From Thermoanaerobaculales bacterium (GTDB taxonomy: Bacteria; Acidobacteriota; Thermoanaerobaculia; Thermoanaerobaculales; Sulfomarinibacteraceae): 64,000 bases of DNA. The notes beneath the pieces were generated by a model. That model did not search any database, was not told the origin of the DNA, and worked only from the letters and a program-made list of their open reading frames with translations. Of the stretch, positions 25,309-48,708 are shown one piece after another; the first letter of the stretch is position 1, and every line of letters begins with the position of its first letter. A program made the position numbers and the translations under genes. The stretch is taken from the NCBI GenBank assembly GCA_025456145.1, contig JALOLD010000009.1:1-64000 (forward strand), written 5' to 3'.

Positions 25309-27480
25309 TCAGCTCAGCCGCTGCCTGATGACGAGGACGCCGGCTCCGGCGAGCACCAGCACCAGAAGCAGCCGACCCAGGCCCCCGAGGTCCGGGACCT
25401 GGTTCACCGGACCGCCGATGCCCACCGTCGTTGGATCGTCGTCCGGGATCGTGCTGGGGTCGTTGGTCGGCTCGCTCGGCAGGGTGTCGCTGTGGACGAT
25501 TCCCTGGTTCGAGATCTGGGTCGTTCCCGGAGGAATCGTGAGATTGACGATGACGTCGAACACGACGATCACGCTCTGCCCCACGTTCAGATTGCCGATC
25601 ACGACCTCCACCGACAGGTCGCCGGCACCGTTGCCGACCGTCACCGTCCCCTGAGTCGAGGTCACCGAGCCGACCACCAGCGTCGTCAACGGGTCCGGGG
25701 TGTCCTGGAGCACGACATTCTCGATCACGGTGTCACCGTCATTGATGATCGTGATGGTGTAGCGGAGCACGTCGCCCGGGTCGGCGAGCTGGTTGCCGCC
25801 CGGATCAAAGACGATCTCGACCTCCTTGAGAGCCTCGAGAGACGGGTTCGACGGGACATCCACCGGTGTGGTGTCGGAGCTGGTGTTGTTGCCCGGGGTC
25901 GGGTCCGCGCCGTTGGCGCCGTCGTCGGCGACGGTCGCGGTGTTGCTCACCAGGACGAAGCCCGGCGGCACCGGGTTGTCCACGGTCACGGCGAAGTCCG
26001 CCGATCCCGAGGCGCCCGCTGCAAGAGCACCGATCGCCAGCGTGCAGACGCTGCCCGCTCCGGTCCCCGGCACGCACACCCAGCCCGCCGTGCTCGCCCC
26101 CGCGTTGAAGGTCGTGCCCGCCGGCACCGTGTCGGAAAGCACCACCCCCGTCGCGTCCTGGTTGCCCGTGTTCTGATAGCTCAGCGTGTAGACGATCACA
26201 CCGCCCGGCACCGTCGTGATCCCGCCGTCGTCCTTGACGATCGTCAGGTCCGGCGCCGCGTTGACCGGCGTCACCGTCGGATCGTCGTCGGGCACCGTGT
26301 CCGGGTCGTTCGTCGGCTCCGGCCCGAGCTCGTTCGAGCTCACCGTGCCCTGGTTCGAGATCTCGGTCACACCCGCCGCCAGCGGGTTGTCGATCACCAC
26401 GTGGAAGCTGATCGTCACCGATCCCGCCGCCGCGATCGTGCCGACGGTCACCTGGACCGGGTCCTCGCTGTCCACCGTGCCCTGGCTCGTCGCCACCGAC
26501 CCCGCCACCACCGTCGTGTTCGCCGGAATCGGGTCCGTGAAGACCACCCCCGTCGCGTCCGTGTTGCCCGTGTTGCTGATCACCACCGTGTACGACAGCG
26601 TGTCCCCCGGCGACACGTCGCCACTGCCGTCCGCGTCGATCAGCAGCGTGTCCGTCTTGTCCGCCTCGAGCACCGGCTCCGCCGTCATCGGCGTCACCGT
26701 CGGGTCGTCGTCCGGCGCCGTGTCCGGGTCGTTCGTCGGCTCGTCCGGGTGGTTCCCCGCCGACACCACACCCTGGTTCGCGACCTGCGTCACACCGCCC
26801 GGCAGCGGGTTGTCCACCAGCACGTCGAAGATGATCGTCACCGACCCGCCCGCCGCAATGTCACCGATGGTGACGTCCACCGGGTCTTCACCGTTGACCG
26901 TGCCCTGCGTCGTCGTCACCGACCCCGCCACCACCGTCGTGTACGTCGGGATCGGGTCCGTGAAGAAGACCGCCGTCGCCGCGGTGTTGCCGCTGTTCGT
27001 GATCACCACCGTGTAGCGCAGGGTGTCCCCGGGCGACGGAATCCCGTTGCCGTCCGCGTCGATGAACAGCGCATCAGCCTTGTCCGCCTCGAGCACCGGG
27101 GCCGCCGTCACCGTCGTCGACGTCGGGTCGTCGTCCGGCAGCGTCTCCGGATCGTTCGTCGGCTCGTCCGGCGTCTCGTTCGTCGTCACCGTGCCCTGGT
27201 TCGCGACGCTCGTCACACCCACCGGCAGCGGGCTGTCGATCGTCACCCGGAAGGTGATCGTCGCCGTCCCGCTGACCGCGACCGTGCCCACGTCGACACC
27301 CACCGAGGCGTCGCCCGCGGTGTTGCCGCTCGTCACCACGCCCTGCGTCGTCGTCACCGACCCCACCACCAGCGCCGTGTTCGCGTCCGGCGTGTCCGCG
27401 AAGGTGACTCCCGTCAGGTCCATGTTCCCGGTGTTCGTGATCACCACCGTGTACTCGAGCGTGTCCCCAGGCGACGGCAC
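25309..27480 (-). CDS. DUF11-repeat surface protein, C-terminal part (separated from 27441..31724 by a frameshift)
   Basis: Repeated GDTLxYTVVISNTGNTDATGVVFTDPIPANTTVVAGSV units; C-terminal LGGLGRLLLVLVLAGAGVLVIRQRLS anchor-like tail. Confidence 0.85.
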   Translation of the reverse strand: MPSPGDTLEYTVVITNTGNMDLTGVTFADTPDANTALVVGSVTTTQGVVTSGNTAGDASVGVDVGTVAVSGTATITFRVTIDSPLPVGVTSVANQGTVTTNETPDEPTNDPETLPDDDPTSTTVTAAPVLEADKADALFIDADGNGIPSPGDTLRYTVVITNSGNTAATAVFFTDPIPTYTTVVAGSVTTTQGTVNGEDPVDVTIGDIAAGGSVTIIFDVLVDNPLPGGVTQVANQGVVSAGNHPDEPTNDPDTAPDDDPTVTPMTAEPVLEADKTDTLLIDADGSGDVSPGDTLSYTVVISNTGNTDATGVVFTDPIPANTTVVAGSVATSQGTVDSEDPVQVTVGTIAAAGSVTISFHVVIDNPLAAGVTEISNQGTVSSNELGPEPTNDPDTVPDDDPTVTPVNAAPDLTIVKDDGGITTVPGGVIVYTLSYQNTGNQDATGVVLSDTVPAGTTFNAGASTAGWVCVPGTGAGSVCTLAIGALAAGASGSADFAVTVDNPVPPGFVLVSNTATVADDGANGADPTPGNNTSSDTTPVDVPSNPSLEALKEVEIVFDPGGNQLADPGDVLRYTITIINDGDTVIENVVLQDTPDPLTTLVVGSVTSTQGTVTVGNGAGDLSVEVVIGNLNVGQSVIVVFDVIVNLTIPPGTTQISNQGIVHSDTLPSEPTNDPSTIPDDDPTTVGIGGPVNQVPDLGGLGRLLLVLVLAGAGVLVIRQRLS

Positions 27481-30400
27481 GCCGTCGCCATCAGCGTCGA
27501 TCGCCAGCCCGGCGTCACCGTCGGATCGCCCGCCGGAGCAGTGTCCGGGTCGTCCGTCGGCACCGAGATCCCGCCGTCCCCCGTCACCAGACCCTGGTTC
27601 GCGACCACCGTCGCCCCCGCCGGGAAAGGCGAGCCCACCACCACGTCAAACGTGATCGTCACCGACCCCGACGCCGCCAGCGTCCCGATCGAGACGCCCA
27701 CCGAGATGTCGCCCGCCGTGTTGCCCGCGGTCACCACACCCTGCGTCGTCGTCACCGACCCCACCACCAGCGCCGTGTTCGCGTCCGGCGTGTCCGCGAA
27801 GACCACGCTCGTCGCCGCCGTCGTCCCCGTGTTCGACACCACCACCGTGTACCGCAGCACATCGCCCGGATCCACCACCCCGTCACCGTCGTTGTCCACG
27901 ACCAAGGCATCCGCCTTCGTCGCCGATACGTCCGGCGCGACCACGTCAAGGGTGTCCGAGCCCGTCGTCGTCCCGACGACCTGGTCCGAGCTCACCACCG
28001 ACGTCGTGTTGGTGTAGCTGCCGGCCACGTCCCCGGTGACGTCGATCGTCACCGCGCAGGCGGTGTTCGCGGCGAGCGTCCCGCCGGCCAGCGTCAACGT
28101 GTCGAATGTGCCGTTCACCGTCGCGGTTCCGCCACAGGTGTTGCTCGTCACCGCCGCGGCGAAGCTCAGCCCCGCCGGCAGGGTGTCCGAAAAGCCCACG
28201 CCGGTGAGACCGACCACCGCGTTGCTGGCGACGGTGATGGTCAGCGCGCTCGATGTCCCCACCGGGATCGGATTGGAGGCGAAGGCCTTGGCGATGGTCG
28301 GCTCGGCCACCGGAACCGTCACCGTCGCCGAGTCGGGGGGCGAGTCGATCCCGCCCGTGCTCGCGAAGGCGGTGTTGGTCACCCCGAGGTTGGTCACGTC
28401 GGAGGGTTGGGTCGTGTAGCTGCCGGTGCAGACGAGAACCTCGGCGGGGTCGAAGAAGTTGTCGTTGTTGCCGATCGTCGTCAGCGACGGACACGAGGCG
28501 CCCGGGACCAGCGGATCGGTGATGGTCACCGGTCCGGCGAGGATCGCGTTGCCGGTGTTGGTGACCGTGAAGGTGTAGCTGATGACTTGGCCGGCCGCGG
28601 TGAAGGTGAGCGGGCTCGCGGTCTTGGCGAGATCGAGCTCGGCGGTGGCGTAGGTCGCGGTGTCGGTGGTCGGTCCCGGCACCTCGGCGGACACCACGCT
28701 CGCCGTGTTGGTCCGCACCCCGGCAAGGGTGGTGACCGGGCCGACGATGCACACCGCGATGTGCGCCGTCGGAAATGTCGCGTCGGCAACGGGCAGCGTT
28801 GCCGGCCAGGTGCAGCCCGACAGGTTGAGCATCGGGTCGCTGACCGCGATGCCGGTCAGCGGGACCTCGCCGGTGTTTTCGACGGTGAGCCTGTACCAGA
28901 CCTGGTCGCCGGCTGTCACCGCCAGGTAGTCCGACCACGCCCCGTCGAGGTCTCCGGTCGGTCCGATCTCCTTGCGGAAGGCGAGGCTCGGAATCGGCTG
29001 GTCGATGACCACGGTGTCGGAGGCGGTCAGACCGTTGCTGACGGTCGCTCCGCCGACCACGTGCGAGACCGGGCTCGAGGTGTTCGGGTAGACCCCTGCG
29101 GGTCCGGTGACGTCGACCGACACGGTGCAGGTGCCGCCCGCGCCGATCGCGCCGCCGGTGAAGCTCACCGACCCGGCGCCGGGGACGGCGGTGAGCGTGC
29201 CGGCGCACGTCGACGACCCGTTCGCCGGCGTCGCGACCACCAGGCCCGCGGGGAAGGTGTCGGAGAAGCTGACACCGACGATGCCGGCGTCCGGGTTGGG
29301 GTTGCTGATCGTGAACGACAGCACCGAGGCGTCGCCCGGGGTGACGCCGAGCAGGACCAGGTTCGGGTCGAAGTCCTTGGCGATGGTCGGCGGCGCGAGG
29401 ACGTCGAGCTGCGCCTGCGCGATGCCGGTCGCGAGATCGGTGTTGTACCCGGACTCGGCGGCGTAGATCGCGTCGCTGAGGTTGAGCTGCGAGCCCACCG
29501 CCAACGCGGTCACGTCGACCGTCAGGGTGCACGAGGCGCCGCCGGCGAGGGCGCCGTCGGTATGCAGCAGGGTCGTGCCGTCGCCCGGATCGAGGCCCCA
29601 GAAGCCGGTGCAGGTCCCACCGAAGGTGCCGGGAACGAGCGCGAGGCTCGAGGGGAGCGTGTCGCGCACCATGATGCCGGTCAGGGGGTCGGCCGGGTTC
29701 GGGTTGGTGATGCCGAAGGTCAAGGTCGACTGCTGCCCGACACCGATCGGGTTCGGCGAGAAGGACTTGCTGATCGTCGGCGGGACCCTGCCCGGAATTG
29801 GCGGCGGCGGCGGAACCTCGACGCAGTAGAGCCCGCGGAAGCGGACCAGGTCGACGAAGACGGCGTGGCCGTTGTTGTTCTGCCCCGAGCTGTAGACGTA
29901 GAGGCGGAACCGGGTGCTTCCGGTCGGGTTCAAACCGGTGGTGATGGTCACCGGCCCGAAGGGGAGCCAGACGTTGGCCGACCCCAGCGAGTACACCGGA
30001 CCCGCGGTCTCGGTGCCGGTGACCGGCCCGTAGTAGAGCTGGATGCTCTGGGCCCCCTGCGATGTCCGACGCCCCTGGAAGTCCAGCGTGATCTCGTCGA
30101 GCCCGGTGGTGTCGACGACGAGCTCGAAGTACTCGTCGTTGCCGAGCACGAGGGCGCCCTGGGAGATGTAGTCCGAGCTCCAGGAACCCGTACCGACGTC
30201 CGATGTGTCGGTCTCGATGGTCGGCGTCAAGCCGGCGCCGGCGGCGGCGCTGGCAGTGACGAGATTGACCGACGGCGCGGGCGCGGTTGTGCTCGAGCCG
30301 ACCGGGAACCGCCACAGCGCGAGCTCCGCGAGGTCGTTGCAGCTCAGCACGGGCGGCGGCGTGGCGCTGACCTCGAGGGTGGCCGTTGCGCTTTCGCCGG

Positions 30401-31724
30401 TGTCGAAGCCGCCGATGAAGAGGTTGTTCGACGTGTTGTCGTAGGTCCCGGCGGCGGCCGCCGTGACATCGACCAGCAGGGTGCAGCTGCCGTTGGCGCT
30501 GATGGTGCCGTCGTCGAACGCCAGGACGGTGTCCGCGGCGAGCGGGCTCCAGATGCCGCCGCAGGTGGTGCTCGCGTTCGGCGGGCTGGCGACCTCGAGA
30601 CCGGCGGGGAGGTTGTCGATGAAGTTGTAGCCCGAGATCTCGATGGGGTTGGGATTGGAGATCGTGAAGCGCAGCCGCGAGCTGTCGCCGATGCCGATGA
30701 CATCGGGGACGAAGCGCTTCGAGATGCTCGACTCGGTCGGATCGTAGGTGGCCAGGCTGCCCGGCGACTCGCTGTAGTCGGTGTTGTAGTGGAAGCTGCC
30801 GCCGGAGCGGTCGTAGATGAGGGCCTCGAGACCGACCCGGTCGCCGCCGGTACTGATGATCCGGATCTCGTAGACCGTGACCACGGTGCCGCCGGCCTTG
30901 CCGTCGGCGAGGCACGAGAGGTAGTTCGGGCTGTCCGGGTCGCTGTCCCAGAGACAGCCGTCGGCCCAGAGGCTCGGGTTCGGTACCGGCACGCGCGACG
31001 GCGGCGCCGTGAGGTCGGTGTAGGTGGTCGAGACCGACATCACCTGGAAGATCGTGTTCGACAGGGTGATGAACGACTGGAGCTCCTCGTACGCCGTGGA
31101 CGTCGCCGTGGTCAGCTCGAAGAAGTAGGTCTCGTTGATGGCGAGGCTGATCGTGCCGCCGGATCCGAGGACCTGCCAGTCGCTCTGGTCCTGCTGCTGT
31201 CCCCAGCGGATTTGCTCGGTGGTGTTGCGGTTCTGCGAAACCAGGTACTCCACGAAGATCTGTCGCGGGCTCGGGGAGAAGCCGGTTTCGACGCCGTCGC
31301 TGGCCTGAATCACGTACTCCCGCGACTGCCCGAACGCCGCCGCCGATCGTGTCAGCTGGAGCTCGAAGTAGGCGTCGACGCACTCTCCGGCGCCGATGAC
31401 GGGGAACGCGAGAGAGGTCAGTGAAGAAGGACGAAGGTTGATGAAGGGGTCCCCCGGACCGAAGTCCCAGCCGTTCCCGTTCCCGTCGGGCCACACGAAA
31501 CCGACGGTGACGTTCGTCGTCGCGACCGCCGAGCACACCTCGGCGCCCACCGGAAACAGCTCCGGACCGCTGGTCAGCGGCCGGTTGCTGTCGAGGCCGA
31601 CCACGTCCCAGGTGATGGGAGTGACCGTGATCTGTGCCGACGCCTGCCCCGCGACGAAGAGGCCGCCGACCGCGAGAATCAAAGCGAGGCAGCGCGCGCC
31701 CACCGAGTGATGAGTCTGAGACAT
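27441..31724 (-). CDS. DUF11-repeat giant secreted protein, N-terminal part
   Basis: Signal peptide (LALILAVGGLFVAGQASAQ) followed by multiple ISNPNPxxxxGxxFxDxLPAGL and DUF11 repeats. Confidence 0.85.
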   Translation of the reverse strand: MSQTHHSVGARCLALILAVGGLFVAGQASAQITVTPITWDVVGLDSNRPLTSGPELFPVGAEVCSAVATTNVTVGFVWPDGNGNGWDFGPGDPFINLRPSSLTSLAFPVIGAGECVDAYFELQLTRSAAAFGQSREYVIQASDGVETGFSPSPRQIFVEYLVSQNRNTTEQIRWGQQQDQSDWQVLGSGGTISLAINETYFFELTTATSTAYEELQSFITLSNTIFQVMSVSTTYTDLTAPPSRVPVPNPSLWADGCLWDSDPDSPNYLSCLADGKAGGTVVTVYEIRIISTGGDRVGLEALIYDRSGGSFHYNTDYSESPGSLATYDPTESSISKRFVPDVIGIGDSSRLRFTISNPNPIEISGYNFIDNLPAGLEVASPPNASTTCGGIWSPLAADTVLAFDDGTISANGSCTLLVDVTAAAAGTYDNTSNNLFIGGFDTGESATATLEVSATPPPVLSCNDLAELALWRFPVGSSTTAPAPSVNLVTASAAAGAGLTPTIETDTSDVGTGSWSSDYISQGALVLGNDEYFELVVDTTGLDEITLDFQGRRTSQGAQSIQLYYGPVTGTETAGPVYSLGSANVWLPFGPVTITTGLNPTGSTRFRLYVYSSGQNNNGHAVFVDLVRFRGLYCVEVPPPPPIPGRVPPTISKSFSPNPIGVGQQSTLTFGITNPNPADPLTGIMVRDTLPSSLALVPGTFGGTCTGFWGLDPGDGTTLLHTDGALAGGASCTLTVDVTALAVGSQLNLSDAIYAAESGYNTDLATGIAQAQLDVLAPPTIAKDFDPNLVLLGVTPGDASVLSFTISNPNPDAGIVGVSFSDTFPAGLVVATPANGSSTCAGTLTAVPGAGSVSFTGGAIGAGGTCTVSVDVTGPAGVYPNTSSPVSHVVGGATVSNGLTASDTVVIDQPIPSLAFRKEIGPTGDLDGAWSDYLAVTAGDQVWYRLTVENTGEVPLTGIAVSDPMLNLSGCTWPATLPVADATFPTAHIAVCIVGPVTTLAGVRTNTASVVSAEVPGPTTDTATYATAELDLAKTASPLTFTAAGQVISYTFTVTNTGNAILAGPVTITDPLVPGASCPSLTTIGNNDNFFDPAEVLVCTGSYTTQPSDVTNLGVTNTAFASTGGIDSPPDSATVTVPVAEPTIAKAFASNPIPVGTSSALTITVASNAVVGLTGVGFSDTLPAGLSFAAAVTSNTCGGTATVNGTFDTLTLAGGTLAANTACAVTIDVTGDVAGSYTNTTSVVSSDQVVGTTTGSDTLDVVAPDVSATKADALVVDNDGDGVVDPGDVLRYTVVVSNTGTTAATSVVFADTPDANTALVVGSVTTTQGVVTAGNTAGDISVGVSIGTLAASGSVTITFDVVVGSPFPAGATVVANQGLVTGDGGISVPTDDPDTAPAGDPTVTPGWRSTLMATACRRLGTRSSTRW

Positions 31725-41102: not shown

Positions 41103-41420
41103 CGATCCCGATCCCGATCCCGATCCCGTTCCCGATGCGACGTCCCGTGAACCGTCGCAACCACGAAGTCACGAAGACACGAAGGCGAGCACGAAGGGGA
41201 TGGTGGTGCGGGCGTCCCGTCCGCAGGGTCGCGATCGATGAGATCGAGAACCCGATGGCTGGGTCCAGCGTGAGTCGGGATCGGGACCGATGACTCCCCC
41301 AACCTGACTCAAGGGGATAGGTGAGGCCCGGAGTATTCACGAGCAGTCTGCTGCGGCAGACGATTCATCCGCCGCAGCCGCGTCTTCGCGCTTGCGACGA
41401 TGCGATGTCTCCGTGCCTCA
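41103..41420. repeat. Dispersed repeat element F copy 1 (GATCCC tract, ACGAAGACACGAAG motif, CGCTTGCGACGATGCG motif)
   Basis: Shares motifs in inverted orientation with 44400-44610. Confidence 0.55.
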
Positions 41421-42551
41421 CCGAGTCGACGGGGACCAGGCGCCGAGATCGCCGCTTTCGAAGTCGTCGAAGAAGAGACCGGAGGTGATCCGGTACACCG
41501 CATCCGCCGCGGTCGAGGAGTGGAACGCCGCCAGATAGAGGCTGCCCCCGTGAAGGGTGAAGAAGTACGGGACGTGCCGGTCCGGGAGGAGGTGGCTGAG
41601 CTCCTCCCAGCTCCCGTTCGCCAGGTCGTCCCAGGTTCGGAAGCGGACCAGCTTGAACCGGTTGTGGTCGGTGCCGGAGGCGTAGGCCGGGTGGAAGAAG
41701 TTCGAGAGGTACCAGTAGCCGTCATAGCGCTCGATGTCGTTGGGGATGAAGCCGGTGGTCTCCCACGACCCGGCCACCGCGTGGGCGATCTTGCCGTAGC
41801 TCGGGTGGACGGTCACCAGGCCGGCGTCGAAGTCGTCGATTTCGATCACCAGCCCCTCCGCGGAGGCGGCGAGGAGGACCTTTCCGTCGACCACCGTCAG
41901 ACCCCTCGAGTACCCGCCCGCCACGGCCGAGAGGTCGAGCGCCGCCTCGTCGACGCCGAACGCCGAGAACCTCATCACGGCCGGGGCGTTGGGGTTGAGC
42001 ACGTAGACCAGCCCGGTGGCCGGGTCCGAGACGACGTCGTGGGGGCGGTGCAGCGCGACTCCGGCGATCGAGGAGCGACCGGTCGCGTCGCCGCCGTCGA
42101 CCCGCTCGAAGGAGAGCACCCGGTGGTTGTCGGTGTCGACGCAGTACAGGAGCTGCTGGGTCGGCGAGGAGGTCAACGCGTGGGGGCCGTCGACCGCGTG
42201 CGGCGACGTCTGCCAGGCCGAGGCGCTCCCAAGGGGGCGGTAGCTGAAGCGGTCGTTCGTGACCTCGGAGATGATCTCGAAGCCGTCGGCGAAGGCGATG
42301 TGGGTCGGCAGGTCGAGGATCACCCCCGAGGCGCCCGGTGCGAACTCCTCGATCGTGAGGCTGTGCGGCGGGACCGAGCGCGCCGGCGCCGGCGGTCTCA
42401 GCGTGGGGTCGACGGGCGGGAAGACCGGGGCCTCGGGCGACCGCTCGGTCGCGGTCGCCGCCGTCGCCATGACGAGCAGCGCTCCGGCCATGAGCCGCGC
42501 AGCTCGGCCCGATCGCCCCGCCGGGCCGGCTGTTCGAAGCTGGGTGAGCAC
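41418..42551 (-). CDS. Secreted beta-propeller-like hypothetical protein with C-terminal LFFDDFESGDLGAWS tail
   Basis: Signal peptide, propeller-type repeats (LLYCVDTDNHRVLSFE, GLVYVLNPNAPAVMRFS), conserved tail. Confidence 0.7.
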   Translation of the reverse strand: MLTQLRTAGPAGRSGRAARLMAGALLVMATAATATERSPEAPVFPPVDPTLRPPAPARSVPPHSLTIEEFAPGASGVILDLPTHIAFADGFEIISEVTNDRFSYRPLGSASAWQTSPHAVDGPHALTSSPTQQLLYCVDTDNHRVLSFERVDGGDATGRSSIAGVALHRPHDVVSDPATGLVYVLNPNAPAVMRFSAFGVDEAALDLSAVAGGYSRGLTVVDGKVLLAASAEGLVIEIDDFDAGLVTVHPSYGKIAHAVAGSWETTGFIPNDIERYDGYWYLSNFFHPAYASGTDHNRFKLVRFRTWDDLANGSWEELSHLLPDRHVPYFFTLHGGSLYLAAFHSSTAADAVYRITSGLFFDDFESGDLGAWSPSTR

Positions 42552-42596
42552 CGTCGGATCCGTCCGTTTCGCTATGATAGCAATGGAGGTTCCGGC

Positions 42597-43994
42597 GTGG
42601 TGATCGCACACCGCCCTGGGCTCGGAGCCCTCGCGAGGTCCTCGACCTTCGCCCTCACGCTCTCGGTGGTCCTGCTCTGGCCGGGCTTGTCGGCGGCCCA
42701 GTCTTTGGTCCGCGGACCCTATCTGCAGACGCCGACCGCGGACGGCGTCATTGTCAGGTGGCGCACCGATGTCCCCTCGGACACGCGGCTCGCCTACGGG
42801 CCGTCCTTCGGCCAGCTCGGCTCGGTGATCACCGACCCGCAGCTGGTAGTCGACCACGAGGTCGAGATCGTCGGTCTCGAGCCGGCGACCAGGACCTACT
42901 ACTCGATCGGGTCGTCGGCCGCGGTCCTCGCCGGCGCCGACCCCGAGCACTGGTTCACCACCGCGCCGGTCGGTAACGACCGTTCGTTCACCCAGATCTG
43001 GGCGATCGGCGACTCGGGGACCGCCGACGCCAACTCAGCCGCCGTCAGGGACGGCTACCTGATCGCCAGCGGCGGCGTCCCCAGCGACGTCTGGCTGATG
43101 CTCGGCGACAACGCCTACCCCGACGGCACCGACCCCGAGTACCAGGCCGCGGTCTTCGACACCTACCCCACGATCCTCCGCAGCACTCCCCTGTGGCCCG
43201 CCTTCGGCAACCACGACGCCCACAGCGCGACATCGGCCACCCAGTCCGGCCCGTACTTCGAGATCTTCAGCCTCCCCGTCGCCGGTCAGGCGGTCGGCCT
43301 GGCATCCGGCACCGAGGCCTACTACTCCTTCGACCACGGCAACATCCACTTCGTCTGCCTCGACACCTCGGACAGCTCGCTCGACCCCGGCGACGAGATG
43401 CTCCAGTGGATGGTGGCCGATCTCCGGGCCACCACGAGGGACTGGATCATCGCGTTCTTCCACCACCCGCCCTACACCAAGGGCTCGCACGACTCCGATG
43501 TCGAGCCCAATTTGATCGCGGTCCGGGAGAACGTCATCCCGCTCCTCGAGGAGCTCGGGGTCGACCTCGTGCTGAGCGGCCACAGCCACCACTACGAACG
43601 GTCCTTCCTGCTCGACGGTCACTACGGGCTCTCGAGCACCTTCGATCCGACGACCATGGCGCTCGACGGCGGCGACGGCCGGCCGGAGGGCGACGGACCG
43701 TACGTCAAGCAGCCGGGGCCCCACAACGGCGCCGTCTACGTGGTCAACGGGACGGGCGGCGAGGTCGGCGGCGCCGGGGCGGGGCTCGACCACCCCGCGA
43801 TGTTCATCAGCCACGCCAAGCTGGGCTCGATGATCCTCCAGGCGACCGGCGACACCCTCGACGTCCGCTTCGTCAACAAGCTCGGCGTGAGGAAGGACTG
43901 GTTCACCCTGGTCAAGCAGGGGCTGCCGATCTTCAGGGACGGGTTCGAGTACGCGAGCACCGCCTCGTGGAGCGGGGTCGAGCCCGGCGGCTGA
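42597..43994 (+). CDS. Secreted purple acid phosphatase-like metallophosphoesterase with C-terminal IFRDGFEYASTASWS tail
   Basis: GDSGTADANS, LGDNAYPDG, FGNHDAHS, FFHHPPYTKG, LSGHSHHYERS metallophosphoesterase motifs; fibronectin-like N-terminal domain. Confidence 0.9.
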   Translation: MVIAHRPGLGALARSSTFALTLSVVLLWPGLSAAQSLVRGPYLQTPTADGVIVRWRTDVPSDTRLAYGPSFGQLGSVITDPQLVVDHEVEIVGLEPATRTYYSIGSSAAVLAGADPEHWFTTAPVGNDRSFTQIWAIGDSGTADANSAAVRDGYLIASGGVPSDVWLMLGDNAYPDGTDPEYQAAVFDTYPTILRSTPLWPAFGNHDAHSATSATQSGPYFEIFSLPVAGQAVGLASGTEAYYSFDHGNIHFVCLDTSDSSLDPGDEMLQWMVADLRATTRDWIIAFFHHPPYTKGSHDSDVEPNLIAVRENVIPLLEELGVDLVLSGHSHHYERSFLLDGHYGLSSTFDPTTMALDGGDGRPEGDGPYVKQPGPHNGAVYVVNGTGGEVGGAGAGLDHPAMFISHAKLGSMILQATGDTLDVRFVNKLGVRKDWFTLVKQGLPIFRDGFEYASTASWSGVEPGG

Positions 43995-44046
43995 CCGGCG
44001 GGCCACCCGGTCGTGCTGCGCGTTGCCCGGCGGACAGCGACTCCGC

Positions 44047-44349
44047 TTACGGCTGGACCTCGTCGAGCAGGCCGAGGAAGGCGTCGTAGTCCATGGCCTG
44101 CCACGACTCCGCCGACACCGCGCCCCCGGCGCGCGAGATGACCGACACCTTGTGGGCGGTCTCGACGTCGGGGGCGTCGTAGATGTCCATGAAGTCATAG
44201 GGCCCGAGGATCGCGTAGTGGGCGTGCCAGGTCACCTCGGGGCAGGCCGTCTTGACCTTCTTGAGCCAGGCGCGGCCCATGGCGCGGCGTACCTCGGCGT
44301 CGTGCAGGCTCTCCGGCGCGAGACGGGTCATCAGGACGAATCGCGGCAT
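44047..44349 (-). CDS. GYD-domain protein
   Basis: MPRFVLMTRLAPESL...WHAHYAILGPYDFMDIYDAPDVETAHKVS. Confidence 0.75.
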   Translation of the reverse strand: MPRFVLMTRLAPESLHDAEVRRAMGRAWLKKVKTACPEVTWHAHYAILGPYDFMDIYDAPDVETAHKVSVISRAGGAVSAESWQAMDYDAFLGLLDEVQP

Positions 44350-44399
44350 GGCTCACCTCCGGTGGCTCAGGTTTGCCACCACCATAGCGCCATCCGACC

Positions 44400-44610
44400 C
44401 GCGGGAAAAGAGCTGCCTGCCGTCGGAGGCACAGAGACGCCGCATCGTCGCAAGCGCGAAGACACGAAGACGCGAAGGAGATCGCGAAGCCGTCGCGATC
44501 AGGGTCATCGCAGGGGTTTGGTGGGGGGCCGGGGGCGTTCGTGAACCAGTGTGGAAACCCGGAGGCGTCGCATCGGGATCGGGATCGGGAACGAAGGCTC
44601 CACCTCCGCG
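44400..44610. repeat. Dispersed repeat element F copy 2 (inverted relative to copy 1)
   Basis: ggcacagagacgccgcatcgtcgcaagcgcgaagacacgaag and cgtcgcatcgggatcgggatcgggaacg. Confidence 0.55.
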
Positions 44611-44636
44611 ATCCGAGCGGAAAGGCAAGGATCGGG

Positions 44637-45059
44637 CTAGGACCGACCGGGAGGAACGGGGTAGAGCGCGAGCTCGAGACCCGGGATGCCGTCGAAATGC
44701 CTGGCGTTCCGGGTGGCCAGGGGGGCGGCGTGCTGAACGGCCCAGGCGGCGATCCAGAGATCGGGCTTCGAGCGTCCGACGAGAGCCGAGCCGCTTCTCA
44801 GCCCGGCGACGATGGTCGCATACCGGTGGGCGGTCTCGAGGTCCACGTCGCCGATCCGAAAGAGGCGCAGAAGGGCGAGCGACTGGGCGAGACGCTCCGG
44901 TGAGACCGCCGCGCCTCCCTCGAGAAACTCCCCGGCGGCGTGCGCCGGGACGACGAACTCGGCCCCCGGGTTGGCGTCAAGGAGGTCCTTGCAGGGAGAC
45001 TCGGGCAGGTCCCGGGTTCGCCAGAGATCGACCAGGAACGTGGTGTCAACGCAGATCAT
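44637..45059 (-). CDS. PIN-domain VapC-like toxin
   Basis: MICVDTTFLVDLWR..., VPAHAAGEFLEG, SKPDLWIAAWAVQHAAPLATRNARHFDGIPGLEL. Confidence 0.85.
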   Translation of the reverse strand: MICVDTTFLVDLWRTRDLPESPCKDLLDANPGAEFVVPAHAAGEFLEGGAAVSPERLAQSLALLRLFRIGDVDLETAHRYATIVAGLRSGSALVGRSKPDLWIAAWAVQHAAPLATRNARHFDGIPGLELALYPVPPGRS

Positions 45060-45297
45060 GGTCGTCCCAGGTCTCGATCTCCCGGTTCTCCGCGACCACC
45101 GCGAGCATCGTCTCCGCGTCGTCGAAGGACAGCGAGGCCACGCTCGAGAGCCCGCGCAGGATGTCGCGCCCGGTGTGGGCCTCCCCCAGCTGATCGATGA
45201 GGCGGTCGATGGTCCTCGAGAAGGACTCGCCCTCGCGCTTGACCCCGGCGAGCTTCTCGTAGACATGCGTGTCGACGGCGATGGTCTTGGAGCTCAT
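45046..45297 (-). CDS. VapB-like antitoxin
   Basis: MSSKTIAVDTHVYEKLAGVKREGESFSRTIDRLI; overlaps the vapC start. Confidence 0.8.
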   Translation of the reverse strand: MSSKTIAVDTHVYEKLAGVKREGESFSRTIDRLIDQLGEAHTGRDILRGLSSVASLSFDDAETMLAVVAENREIETWDDHDLR

Positions 45298-45333
45298 ACA
45301 TACAGAAATATATGTAGAGCCTCGAGCTGTCAA
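45297..45333 (-). promoter_or_regulatory. Putative vapBC promoter/operator
   Basis: Minus strand TTGACA (45333-45328), 17-nt spacer, TATTTC (45310-45305); arms TACATA (45297-45302) and TATGTA (45311-45316) overlap the -10. Confidence 0.55.
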
Positions 45334-45560
45334 GACCGGCCGGTCGCCGGTGGTCGGGCGATCGATCCACGACGCCGGTTGACCGCGCCGTCGGCTCACG
45401 GGCAACTGGCGAGTCGGGGCATGAAGGGCCCCCGGGACACTGCCTCGACGAGACCACGCCCGCTCTCCCTTCCGATGACCGCCGAGCGGACGAACCGAAT
45501 CCGAGCATCGACGTTCAATTCTCTGGAGCGCCCGGTGCATCCACCACGAGGGAGGAGCCC

Positions 45561-46481
45561 ATGAAGATGATCCGCCCGCTGATCGTCGGTGTCCTGCTCA
45601 CCGCCGCCACCCAGACCCAGGCCGGCGTCGAGCTCCGTCAGGAGCACGTCTTCGAAGCGCGTCCCGGTCAGAAGGTCTCGATCGAGGCCACCTTCCACAC
45701 CGTCGAGGTCGAGGTCGTCCCGGGCTCGACGGTTCGCGCGGTCGTCGAGATCACGTCGGCGTCGTCGGGAAGCAAGGCCGAGCGTGCGGTCGAGGAGCTG
45801 CGTCCGGTGTTCGAGGAAAAGGGCGACACCCTCCTCATCCGGTCGGTCCGCAGGGGCGGCTGGGGATGGTCGGGCGGCGGCCTCCGCGGCCGGGTCGTCG
45901 TGACCATGCCGTCGGGGCTCGACCTCGCGGTCGAGAGCTCGTCGGGCTCGATCACCGTCGCTGGCGATCTCGGCGACGCCGCGGCGCGCTGCAGCGCCTC
46001 GTCGGGCTCGGTGACCGTCCGCGGCGCGATGCGCGAGCTCGCGGCCGACACCTCGTCGGGCGCCATCCGGGTCACGGTCAGCCGCCCCCTCGATCGCTTC
46101 ACCGCCGACGCCTCGTCGGGCAGCGTCCGGCTCTCCGGCGGCGCCCATGACGCCTTCGCCGACACCTCGTCGGGCAGCATCGATCTCGACGGGCTGCTCG
46201 GCGACGCCGGGATGAGCGCCTCGTCGGGGAGCATCGAGGCGCGCTGGGACTCGATCCCCGCCGGAGCGTCGGTCAAGGCGAGCGCGAGCTCGGGCAGCGT
46301 CACCCTGACGCTGCCGCCGGGCACCCCCGTCGCGGGCACCGCCGACACCGGCTCGGGCGGCATCCGCAGCGACTTCAAGGGCACCTTCGAGCGCCGCCAC
46401 GCGACCTTCGCCGGCGGCCCGGGCGCGGTCCAGGTCCGGGTCAGCACCTCGTCGGGCGGCGTCTCGGTGACCTCGGGCTGA
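45561..46481 (+). CDS. Secreted DUF4097-family beta-strand repeat protein
   Basis: Repeated SSSGSITV/ASSGSVTV/DTSSGSIDL motifs after a signal peptide. Confidence 0.85.
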   Translation: MKMIRPLIVGVLLTAATQTQAGVELRQEHVFEARPGQKVSIEATFHTVEVEVVPGSTVRAVVEITSASSGSKAERAVEELRPVFEEKGDTLLIRSVRRGGWGWSGGGLRGRVVVTMPSGLDLAVESSSGSITVAGDLGDAAARCSASSGSVTVRGAMRELAADTSSGAIRVTVSRPLDRFTADASSGSVRLSGGAHDAFADTSSGSIDLDGLLGDAGMSASSGSIEARWDSIPAGASVKASASSGSVTLTLPPGTPVAGTADTGSGGIRSDFKGTFERRHATFAGGPGAVQVRVSTSSGGVSVTSG

Positions 46482-46734
46482 GCCCGCCCGGCCCGCGCAC
46501 CGGAGCTCGTCGCGTGCCGATGGCGCCGTGTCCTTCGGCGGACGTCCGGCGAGGGAGGCCCCGTTCCCCGGCGACGGCGGGGCGATGGCCACCAGGAGGG
46601 CGCGAGTGGCGCCGGCTTCGGCAAGGCGGGCGAGGAGCTCGCGACCGACTCCGCCGCGGACCGGTCACTCGGCTCGGCTGGCGTGCACCCCTCTCCCGAT
46701 TCGAGGCGACCCGGAGCATCGCGCCGGCGCTGGC

Positions 46735-48708
46735 TCAGGGCAGGCTCAGGCTCCACGCCGCGAGGCTGCCGTCCTCGAAGTCGTCGGCGAAGATCAGACC
46801 TCCGAAATCGACCTGGTGGCTGTAGACCCCCGCCGCGCCGAGCTCGGTCGACAGATAGACCGGCCAGGAGTGCTCGCCGGCCGCCGCGAGACCGCTGTAG
46901 TCGCCGATGAACTGGCCGTTTCCGAGGTCGGTGAGACCGGTGTCGAAGGGCGAGCCGGTCAGCAGGTGGGTCGTCCAGCTGGCGCCGCCGTCATCGCTCC
47001 AGGCATAGACCGCCTCGAGCCAAGCGGTGGCGGCGCTGTCGGGTTGCACGGTTCCGCTGCTGTCGAGGTAGAGCAGGTGGAGCCGGCCGCTGGAGTCGAC
47101 CTCGAGCCATGGGAAGAACTGGTCGCCCGGAGGATCGGGATCGGCCGAGATGACCACCGGCGCGGTCCAGGTCGACCCGTCGTCATCGGAGCGGGTCAGG
47201 AAGAGGTCGACATCGGCATCGCTCCCAACCACCGCGGAGGTGTCGAAGTAGACGCAGTAGAGTGTCCCCTCTACCGGGTCCACGGTCAGGGCCGGCAGCT
47301 GTGGGACCCGGAAGTTGCCCGGCACCTGGGGCGAGCTGAAGATGTCCCAGAGGTCGAGCAGGGTCGTGATGCGGATCGGCGCCGACATCGTCTGGCCGCC
47401 GTCGGTGCTCCGCTGCAGTCGGTGGCCGTCCAGGTAGTCCCAGTACGAGATGTAAACCGTGCCATCCGGCCCGACTCGCGGCAGAAACCCGACCCCGGAG
47501 CCCAGCGATACCGGCGACGACCAGCTGGCGCCGAGGTCGTCCGAGTGCTGGAGGCCGAGGTTGTAGGCCGCGTAGAGTCGGGTCGAGTCCGGTTCGGACG
47601 GACGGGGACCCGCCGCCAACCAGCCCTTGTCGGCAGAGCCGCTTGCCAGGGTCATCACCGCCGGTTCGAAGACGCTAGCGCCGGGCTGCTTCCGGGCCAC
47701 GAAGAGGCCGCCGTTGCCGGCAAAGCTGATCGCCCCGACCCACAGCGTCCCGGTGCGGGGGTCGACCGCCGTCATCGGGTCACCCTCGACGTCCGACTGG
47801 TTGGCGACCGGCGCCCGCACCACCTGATCGGTCCAGGTCGCACCATCGAGGCTGGTCGCCACCCCCAGACGAATCACCCCCGCCGGGCTGTAGTCGTTCC
47901 AGCCGGCCACCACCTCGCCTGCGCCCCACGCGGCCGCCGTGGTCTCATTGGCCCGAACCGAGCCGAGGGTCGGGTTGAGGCGGACCTGCTGGCCGACCAC
48001 CGGCTGGTTGGCAGCGAAGGGGGCCTCACCGGCTGGCGCCCCTGCGGTCACCACGGCGGCGGCCGGCCCCTCCCCGGTCACGAGTTGGGCGAGATGCCCC
48101 GGCAGCGGCGTCCCCGCTGCCTGGGCGGCGGCCACCCGCCCGGCCGCCTCCTCGACATCGCCGGCGAGCCAGGCGGCCACCGCCAGCCGTACGTGGGCCG
48201 GTCCGAGCCCGGGGTCGACCGCCAGCGCCTCGTGCCAGGCCGCCGCGGCCCGGTCGTCGTGCCCGGAGCGGTCGAGTGCCGCACCGAGCAGGAACCAGGC
48301 GCCGGCGTCGCGCGGCTCGAGATCGACCGCCGTAGCGAAGGCCGCGACCGCGACGTCGGTGCGATCGGTTGTGAGAAGGGCCCGTCCCAGGGCGACGCAG
48401 GCGTCGGCGCTGCCCGGAGCGCCCCGCACCACCGCCACGGCGGCGGCGAGGGCCGCCGGTCGCAACCCCCGGTCCAGGAGATCGTCGACCTCGGCGAGGC
48501 GTCCCCTGATCTCGGCCGGAGCGAGCGGCGGCGCCGGCTCGGCGACGAGCCGCCCATCGACCACCGCCACGCCTTCGAGGGCCGCGTCGATCTGCCGTTT
48601 CCGATACTCCAGCGCCGGGCTCAGGCTGTCGCCGTCGCGGCCTCCGCAGCCCAGCAGGGCGATCACCGTCGCCGCGATCACCGCACCGGTCAGGCTCCGT
48701 TCGAACAT
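46735..48708 (-). CDS. Lipoprotein with TPR-like N-terminus and BNR/sialidase-like propeller, C-terminal IFADDFEDGSLAAWS tail
   Basis: Lipobox-like IALLGC; SDDLGASWSS, STDGGQTMS, SDDDGSTWTAP, SDDGGASWTT Asp-box motifs. Confidence 0.8.
   Translation of the reverse strand: MFERSLTGAVIAATVIALLGCGGRDGDSLSPALEYRKRQIDAALEGVAVVDGRLVAEPAPPLAPAEIRGRLAEVDDLLDRGLRPAALAAAVAVVRGAPGSADACVALGRALLTTDRTDVAVAAFATAVDLEPRDAGAWFLLGAALDRSGHDDRAAAAWHEALAVDPGLGPAHVRLAVAAWLAGDVEEAAGRVAAAQAAGTPLPGHLAQLVTGEGPAAAVVTAGAPAGEAPFAANQPVVGQQVRLNPTLGSVRANETTAAAWGAGEVVAGWNDYSPAGVIRLGVATSLDGATWTDQVVRAPVANQSDVEGDPMTAVDPRTGTLWVGAISFAGNGGLFVARKQPGASVFEPAVMTLASGSADKGWLAAGPRPSEPDSTRLYAAYNLGLQHSDDLGASWSSPVSLGSGVGFLPRVGPDGTVYISYWDYLDGHRLQRSTDGGQTMSAPIRITTLLDLWDIFSSPQVPGNFRVPQLPALTVDPVEGTLYCVYFDTSAVVGSDADVDLFLTRSDDDGSTWTAPVVISADPDPPGDQFFPWLEVDSSGRLHLLYLDSSGTVQPDSAATAWLEAVYAWSDDGGASWTTHLLTGSPFDTGLTDLGNGQFIGDYSGLAAAGEHSWPVYLSTELGAAGVYSHQVDFGGLIFADDFEDGSLAAWSLSLP

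Follow-up and report, generated by a model that had tools for sequence, protein, structure and literature searches.

Donor-strand exchange is used by chaperone-usher pili, and in pilins of the FimC/FimH-FimG type a strand from another protein completes a beta-sandwich; the fold is of the immunoglobulin type and the donor is an N-terminal extension. A different arrangement is that of dockerin and cohesin in cellulosomes, where a small C-terminal module present on many exported enzymes, a folded Ca-binding module of duplicated helices, docks to a common partner. PEP-CTERM, GlyGly-CTERM, MYXO-CTERM and LPXTG are short homologous C-termini of many unrelated exported proteins with a sporadic distribution, characterised by a signature motif, a transmembrane helix, a basic end and processing by a membrane enzyme. 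The C-terminal domain (CTD) of T9SS is an immunoglobulin-like domain of about 70-100 residues cleaved by PorU; the proteins that carry it are exported by Sec, C25 and M36 peptidases among them. Finally, the one-piece relatives known as choice-of-anchor J, MAM and LamG have a jelly-roll fold and open with a DFExG...W strand.

Here we describe a C-terminal tail of about 18 residues which, as judged from sequence, probably acts as a donor strand completing a shared lectin-like acceptor in trans for many exported client proteins. As in chaperone-usher pilins, a strand from another protein would complete a beta-sandwich; however, the fold is ConA/LamG-like, the donor is C-terminal, a genome may have as many as about 160 unrelated clients, and no usher or pilin was seen among the neighbouring genes. 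An acceptor without one strand and a donor sequence corresponding to the missing strand were both found; the ConA-like fold and the C-terminal donor do not fit immunoglobulin-fold pilins with an N-terminal donor extension. The proposed docking of many exported proteins to a common partner resembles the dockerin system, but the tail has only 18 residues and would be part of the partner's own fold; no dockerin was present on tailed proteins among the 25 families listed from the Pfam/NCBIfam scan. The tail also shares its shortness, its unrelated exported hosts and its sporadic occurrence with the PEP-CTERM group, yet has none of the four characteristics of the latter: tails end with WSxxxP, with neither a hydrophobic helix nor basic residues at the C-terminus, and the comparison of 70 tailed proteins with NCBIfam and Pfam gave no tag model among the 25 families listed for each. 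The T9SS domain is far larger than the tail, and no such family appeared among the matches listed for tailed proteins. Choice-of-anchor J, MAM and LamG domains open with a similar strand and differ in that the tail system splits the first strand and the rest into separate genes. No description of the tail motif or of the tagging system was found in the open-access literature; we know of no earlier case of such a tag on clients throughout a genome, while the physical principle, donor-strand complementation, is known.

The tail and its host proteins

The analysed stretch of DNA, hereafter the window, comprises 64,000 nucleotides. The first-pass annotation had noticed a 15-residue C-terminal pattern on three unrelated secreted proteins of the window, and all three tails were indeed located at the ends given, aligning without gaps: LFFDDFESGDLGAWSPSTR (41418, minus strand), IFRDGFEYASTASWSGVEPGG (43994, plus strand) and IFADDFEDGSLAAWSLSLP (46735, minus strand), each followed by the stop. 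The hosts are unrelated, as had been claimed, their upstream domains being a weak NHL-like propeller, a calcineurin-like phosphoesterase and TPR with BNR repeats (in a lipoprotein), according to the family-model scan, and the tail region is covered by no Pfam or NCBIfam model (Table 1). The extent of the pattern had to be revised, since the unit proper spans about 18 residues, [LI]FxD[GD]FExGxxxxWSxxxP, usually closing with proline. The tail of the TPR and BNR protein is the nearest to the consensus among the three, and that of the metallophosphoesterase has no G two residues after FE and extends two residues beyond the usual terminal P.

Table 1. Tailed proteins of the window and their proposed donor strands
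Feature	Position	Strand	Details
Exported propeller-like protein with tail	41418..42551	-	Longest ORF starts at 42950; a signal peptide is plausible if GTG near 42551 is taken as the start
Tail of propeller-like protein, proposed donor strand	41418..41474	-	FFDDFESGDLGAWSPSTR, then stop
Calcineurin-like metallophosphoesterase with purple-acid-phosphatase N-domain and tail	42597..43994	+	Signal peptide MVIAHRPGLGALARSSTFALTLSVVLLWPGLSAAQS
Tail of metallophosphoesterase, proposed donor strand	43932..43994	+	FRDGFEYASTASWSGVEPGG, then stop; divergent
TPR and BNR protein with tail	46735..48708	-	Lipobox-like N-terminus MFERSLTGAVIAATVIALLGC
Tail of TPR and BNR protein, proposed donor strand	46735..46791	-	FADDFEDGSLAAWSLSLP, then stop

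Other elements of the window should be mentioned. A repeated DNA element some 120 bp long, with dozens of copies genome-wide, often in arrays, lies at 44426-44544 and, as a 41-base part overlapping the stop of the propeller gene, at 41379-41419. A likely VapBC-type toxin-antitoxin pair was recognised by eye at 44637-45310 (minus strand), with a PIN-domain-like protein (MICVDTTFLVDLWRTRDL...) and a small upstream antitoxin (MSSKTIAVDTHVYEKLAGVKREGESFSRTIDRL...). Furthermore, a large exported protein at 27444-31703 (minus strand) was grouped by similarity with many tailed proteins and is itself without a recognisable tail.

In the 4.55-Mb source assembly the pattern D[DG]FEx6W[ST] gave 48 matches and its reversed form none; the looser D[DEG]F[DE]x6W gave 74 matches against one reversed, with 0-1 matches for the controls of the looser form. 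The DNA around every match was taken for ORF analysis in six-frame translation. The first-pass annotation had made its reading depend on C-terminal enrichment of the motif in signal-peptide proteins, and this enrichment is pronounced: 72 of the 77 motif-bearing ORFs carry it as a C-terminal tail, the remaining five being chance internal matches, and a crude signal-peptide heuristic was positive for 46/68 tailed proteins versus 81/304 neighbouring genes (odds ratio 5.8, p=6e-10). With alternative starts 61/72 tailed proteins were positive, gene starts as well as signal peptides being heuristic throughout; most tailed proteins without a signal-peptide call were cut by a contig or locus end, or had an uncertain start.

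Seventy tails were analysed in detail, with the consensus [LI]FAD[GD]FESGxTSAWSxxVP-COOH. D, F and W are invariant in all 70, E is present in 69 and G in 67; the distance from the first D to the C-terminus is exactly 15 residues in 56/70, and proline is the last residue in 54/70. The serine of "WS" is encoded by TCN in 27 and by AGN in 18 of the 48 D[DG]FEx6W[ST] matches. This mixture of codon families points to conservation at the protein level with no recent copying of DNA, and an origin of the tails as a DNA repeat was ruled out on the same grounds. Tailed hosts include M14, M36-like, C25, S8 and trypsin-like peptidases, Kelch, BNR and FG-GAP propellers, DUF11 and MAM proteins and, at locus L060, a DUF1501 protein; three tailed C25 peptidases are distant relatives of PorU.

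One-piece domain and proposed acceptor protein

Genomes with few tails were expected to expose the core of the system, and low-copy loci were therefore examined. In these genomes the motif takes two forms. As a C-terminal tail it is carried chiefly by DUF1501 proteins, whose start is twin-arginine-like and which adjoin DUF1800; otherwise it opens a complete domain, about 195 or 260 aa long, at the C-terminus. This one-piece domain matched no Pfam family. Its structural model (pLDDT 88, pTM 0.87) is a ConA/LamG-like jelly-roll, with strands at motif residues 9-11 and directly past the W. The acceptor described below gave, when modelled alone, the same fold class at lower confidence (pLDDT 73), and in Foldseek searches both matched alginate lyases, Cip1 and further jelly-rolls of the ConA-like type with E about 1e-7, so that by jelly-roll similarity both resemble the ConA-like lectin/glucanase fold. 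Pfam matches below the cut-off were to lyase/CBM families. Glycan binding in the manner of lectins is suggested by the modelled fold. Since the motif opens a complete ConA/LamG-like domain, the tail corresponds to the first strand and loop of that domain.

From this correspondence, the rest of the domain was predicted to exist as a separate protein, which was then found by searching with a profile of the one-piece domain. In 16 genomes searched, the profile picked out a small protein in tail-positive genomes, aligned only from model position 24-39 onwards and thus missing the first strand; the five tail-negative genomes gave no match. In these acceptors the signal peptide runs straight into strand 2 of the domain. 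One acceptor gene was found in the source genome (C97:54693-55337), encoding 215 aa: MKALRTTLIVAAVIALAGSAMA (signal peptide) followed by ANTVYVDATAAMNGTNYGLVL... (strand-less domain). No anchor of their own is visible in acceptors. In one-piece domains W lies 20-23 residues from the L conserved in strand 2, and the tail (5 residues after W) together with the mature acceptor (17-19, with cleavage sites predicted by eye) gives 22-24.

In a test of 39 domain starts, which used a profile free of the strand and motif on loci found with related profiles (one-piece domains having initially been found via the motif), a signal peptide came before 23 and the motif in cis before 13, while three had neither and none had both; two of the three "neither" cases are degenerate motifs. 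Locus L214 holds tail and acceptor parts in one chain and in that order, an uncut form (SAWSSSVPLPQSVHGGGELLAVNN). For most pairs a frameshift artefact can be dismissed, the acceptor having a start and a signal peptide of its own; the case of G334, with no clear in-frame signal peptide in its acceptor, is doubtful. A further exported chain (L243, 1486-3024, in genome G327) begins, at the N-terminus, with an acceptor domain lacking the strand and ends, at the C-terminus, with a donor tail; chains of this type could link head to tail.

It should be added that in G144, a genome with one tail, the acceptor (L316 / L376) has a dockerin-like C-terminal extension, GDADGNGTVDSNDLPAL...DVNCDGDFDAADLSAL, as seen by eye. 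The genomes G343, G344 and G345 have 13-21 acceptor/domain profile matches each, frequently as tandem copies within very large proteins, and some of them have the motif in cis.

Distribution and gene neighbourhood

In the class Thermoanaerobaculia (149 genomes) tail counts follow a bimodal distribution, a genome having either 0 or as many as 161, while the reversed pattern gave 0-1 matches and a control with the gap one base short 0-2 matches per genome. Many of the genomes analysed are MAG assemblies. Only four of 297 genomes of the phylum are tail-rich, all of them in Thermoanaerobaculia, and tail-rich and tail-free genera coexist in one family (f1, f7). In a scan of named genomes, matches fell mostly in Thermoanaerobaculia and other Acidobacteriota MAGs, and 86 of 98 motif ORFs had the motif at the C-terminus. 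Apparent tails in Chloroflexi and Acidimicrobiia were rejected, as their motifs are internal, and single matches in Kangiella and Actinomycetota MAGs (one each) are probably misbinned or due to chance.

Within the class, the domain, counted as one-piece domains as well as acceptors, is present in 51/60 genomes with two or more tails and in 4/89 others. The p-value of 1.3e-25 overstates independence as the genomes are related, yet changes between presence and absence occur inside families f1, f7 and f82. At completeness of at least 90% the figures are 38/41 and 3/70. Phylum-wide, the domain was found in 8/297 genomes, seven of the eight in Thermoanaerobaculia. Exceptions exist in both directions: eight genomes with at least three tails gave no acceptor match, three of these being at least 91% complete (G375, G318, G338), and the 2.0-Mb, 97% complete genome G200 has an acceptor gene (L403, G200:C34:86000-98000) and no tail by pattern, this acceptor perhaps working with a variant tail.

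Acceptor genes border tail genes in several low-copy genomes. The two lie side by side on one strand in G326, G327 (twice), G332, G334, G336, G363, G364 and G365. The same holds for Sulfidibacter corallicola, a cultured organism with a complete genome: both of its pattern matches are C-terminal tails, and an acceptor adjoins on the same strand at both loci. The acceptor of the source genome on C97 lies about 60 bp after the gene of a 245-residue exported protein ending with VFFDNFGTGGTDRWSGTSGS, a variant tail. A pattern match near the G198 acceptor was rejected as a tail since it is not C-terminal. In high-copy genomes, neighbours of acceptors recognised by eye often include sulfatase-like proteins (ending ..LGYL) and glycosyltransferases (L364, L366, L368, L373, L378), and the clustering of neighbours around tail genes revealed no sorting enzyme.

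Proposed mechanism, alternatives and implications

We propose that the first beta-strand and loop of a ConA/LamG-like jelly-roll have become detached and fixed to the C-termini of client proteins, and that a small exported protein encoded elsewhere, the acceptor, supplies the remainder. Client and acceptor would be exported separately by Sec (by Tat in the case of DUF1501 clients), after which the tail would insert into the strand-less acceptor and complete the jelly-roll fold, so that unrelated clients would share a single lectin-like module in trans. The completed module would confer a common property on the clients, most plausibly attachment to a surface glycan or matrix. The steps differ in strength. 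Physical complementation of the acceptor by the tail is quite likely, given the complementarity of sequences, the co-occurrence and the gene order. That the completed module holds clients on a surface glycan or another matrix is suggested by the fold and some neighbouring genes, and we put it forward tentatively, at somewhat less than even confidence. The chances are evenly balanced for the wider picture, in which one universal strand-less socket would serve the 18-residue tails of up to about 160 clients per genome as a shared glycan- or surface-binding module, and could chain into fibres where acceptor and tail lie at opposite ends of a protein.

The first-pass annotation had read the tail as a sorting, secretion or surface-attachment signal. 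A modular C-terminal tag on exported proteins is supported, but one that does not resemble known sorting signals, with neither a transmembrane helix, nor a basic end, nor a large CTD; surface attachment via the tail is possible and would depend on the role of its partner. Were the tail a signal read by an enzyme or outer-membrane machine, with the acceptor as a chaperone or receptor subunit and no stable partner, then the signal-peptide hosts, the constant distance to the C-terminus and the terminal proline would be explained, and tailed proteins do include relatives of M36 peptidases which elsewhere bear GlyGly-CTERM, MYXO-CTERM or T9SS signals. Moreover, DUF1501 clients look Tat-exported and others Sec-exported, and since both types are tailed, the tag would act past the inner membrane. 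Nevertheless, we consider this explanation unlikely, for besides the atypical tail, clustering gave no conserved neighbour except the acceptor, and acceptor and tail complement each other exactly within one domain, which need not hold for a signal reader.

Two other explanations are less probable still. The acceptor might be a periplasmic chaperone or cap shielding the tails, with clients passing to another strand-less acceptor or polymerising head to tail as in pilus assembly; the precedent of donor-strand exchange in chaperone-usher pili and the L243 chain, which could polymerise, speak for this improbable scheme, whereas most clients have only the tail and most acceptors are tail-less, leaving only pairs possible for most. 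Tails might instead be relics of a lectin-like C-terminal domain that was repeatedly truncated, acceptors being surviving members of the family without any interaction. One-piece and short forms do occur in the same lineage, but a motif would not survive decay, a genome may hold as many as 161 copies in which D, F and W never vary and the end is fixed, and acceptors and tails co-occur with their genes adjoining; we regard such an origin as very improbable. The donor-strand reading is preferred.

If it is true, the C-terminal tag is read via structural completion and not by a protease, sortase or secretion machine, and the DUF1800-DUF1501-acceptor operon of some genomes is accounted for. Tail and acceptor would be a natural pair of tag and socket that biotechnology might exploit. 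The system is directly testable with two small proteins, and S. corallicola has just two such pairs. The finding would also tell the destination of dozens of uncharacterised proteases, propellers and phosphatases in a phylum rich in uncultured members.
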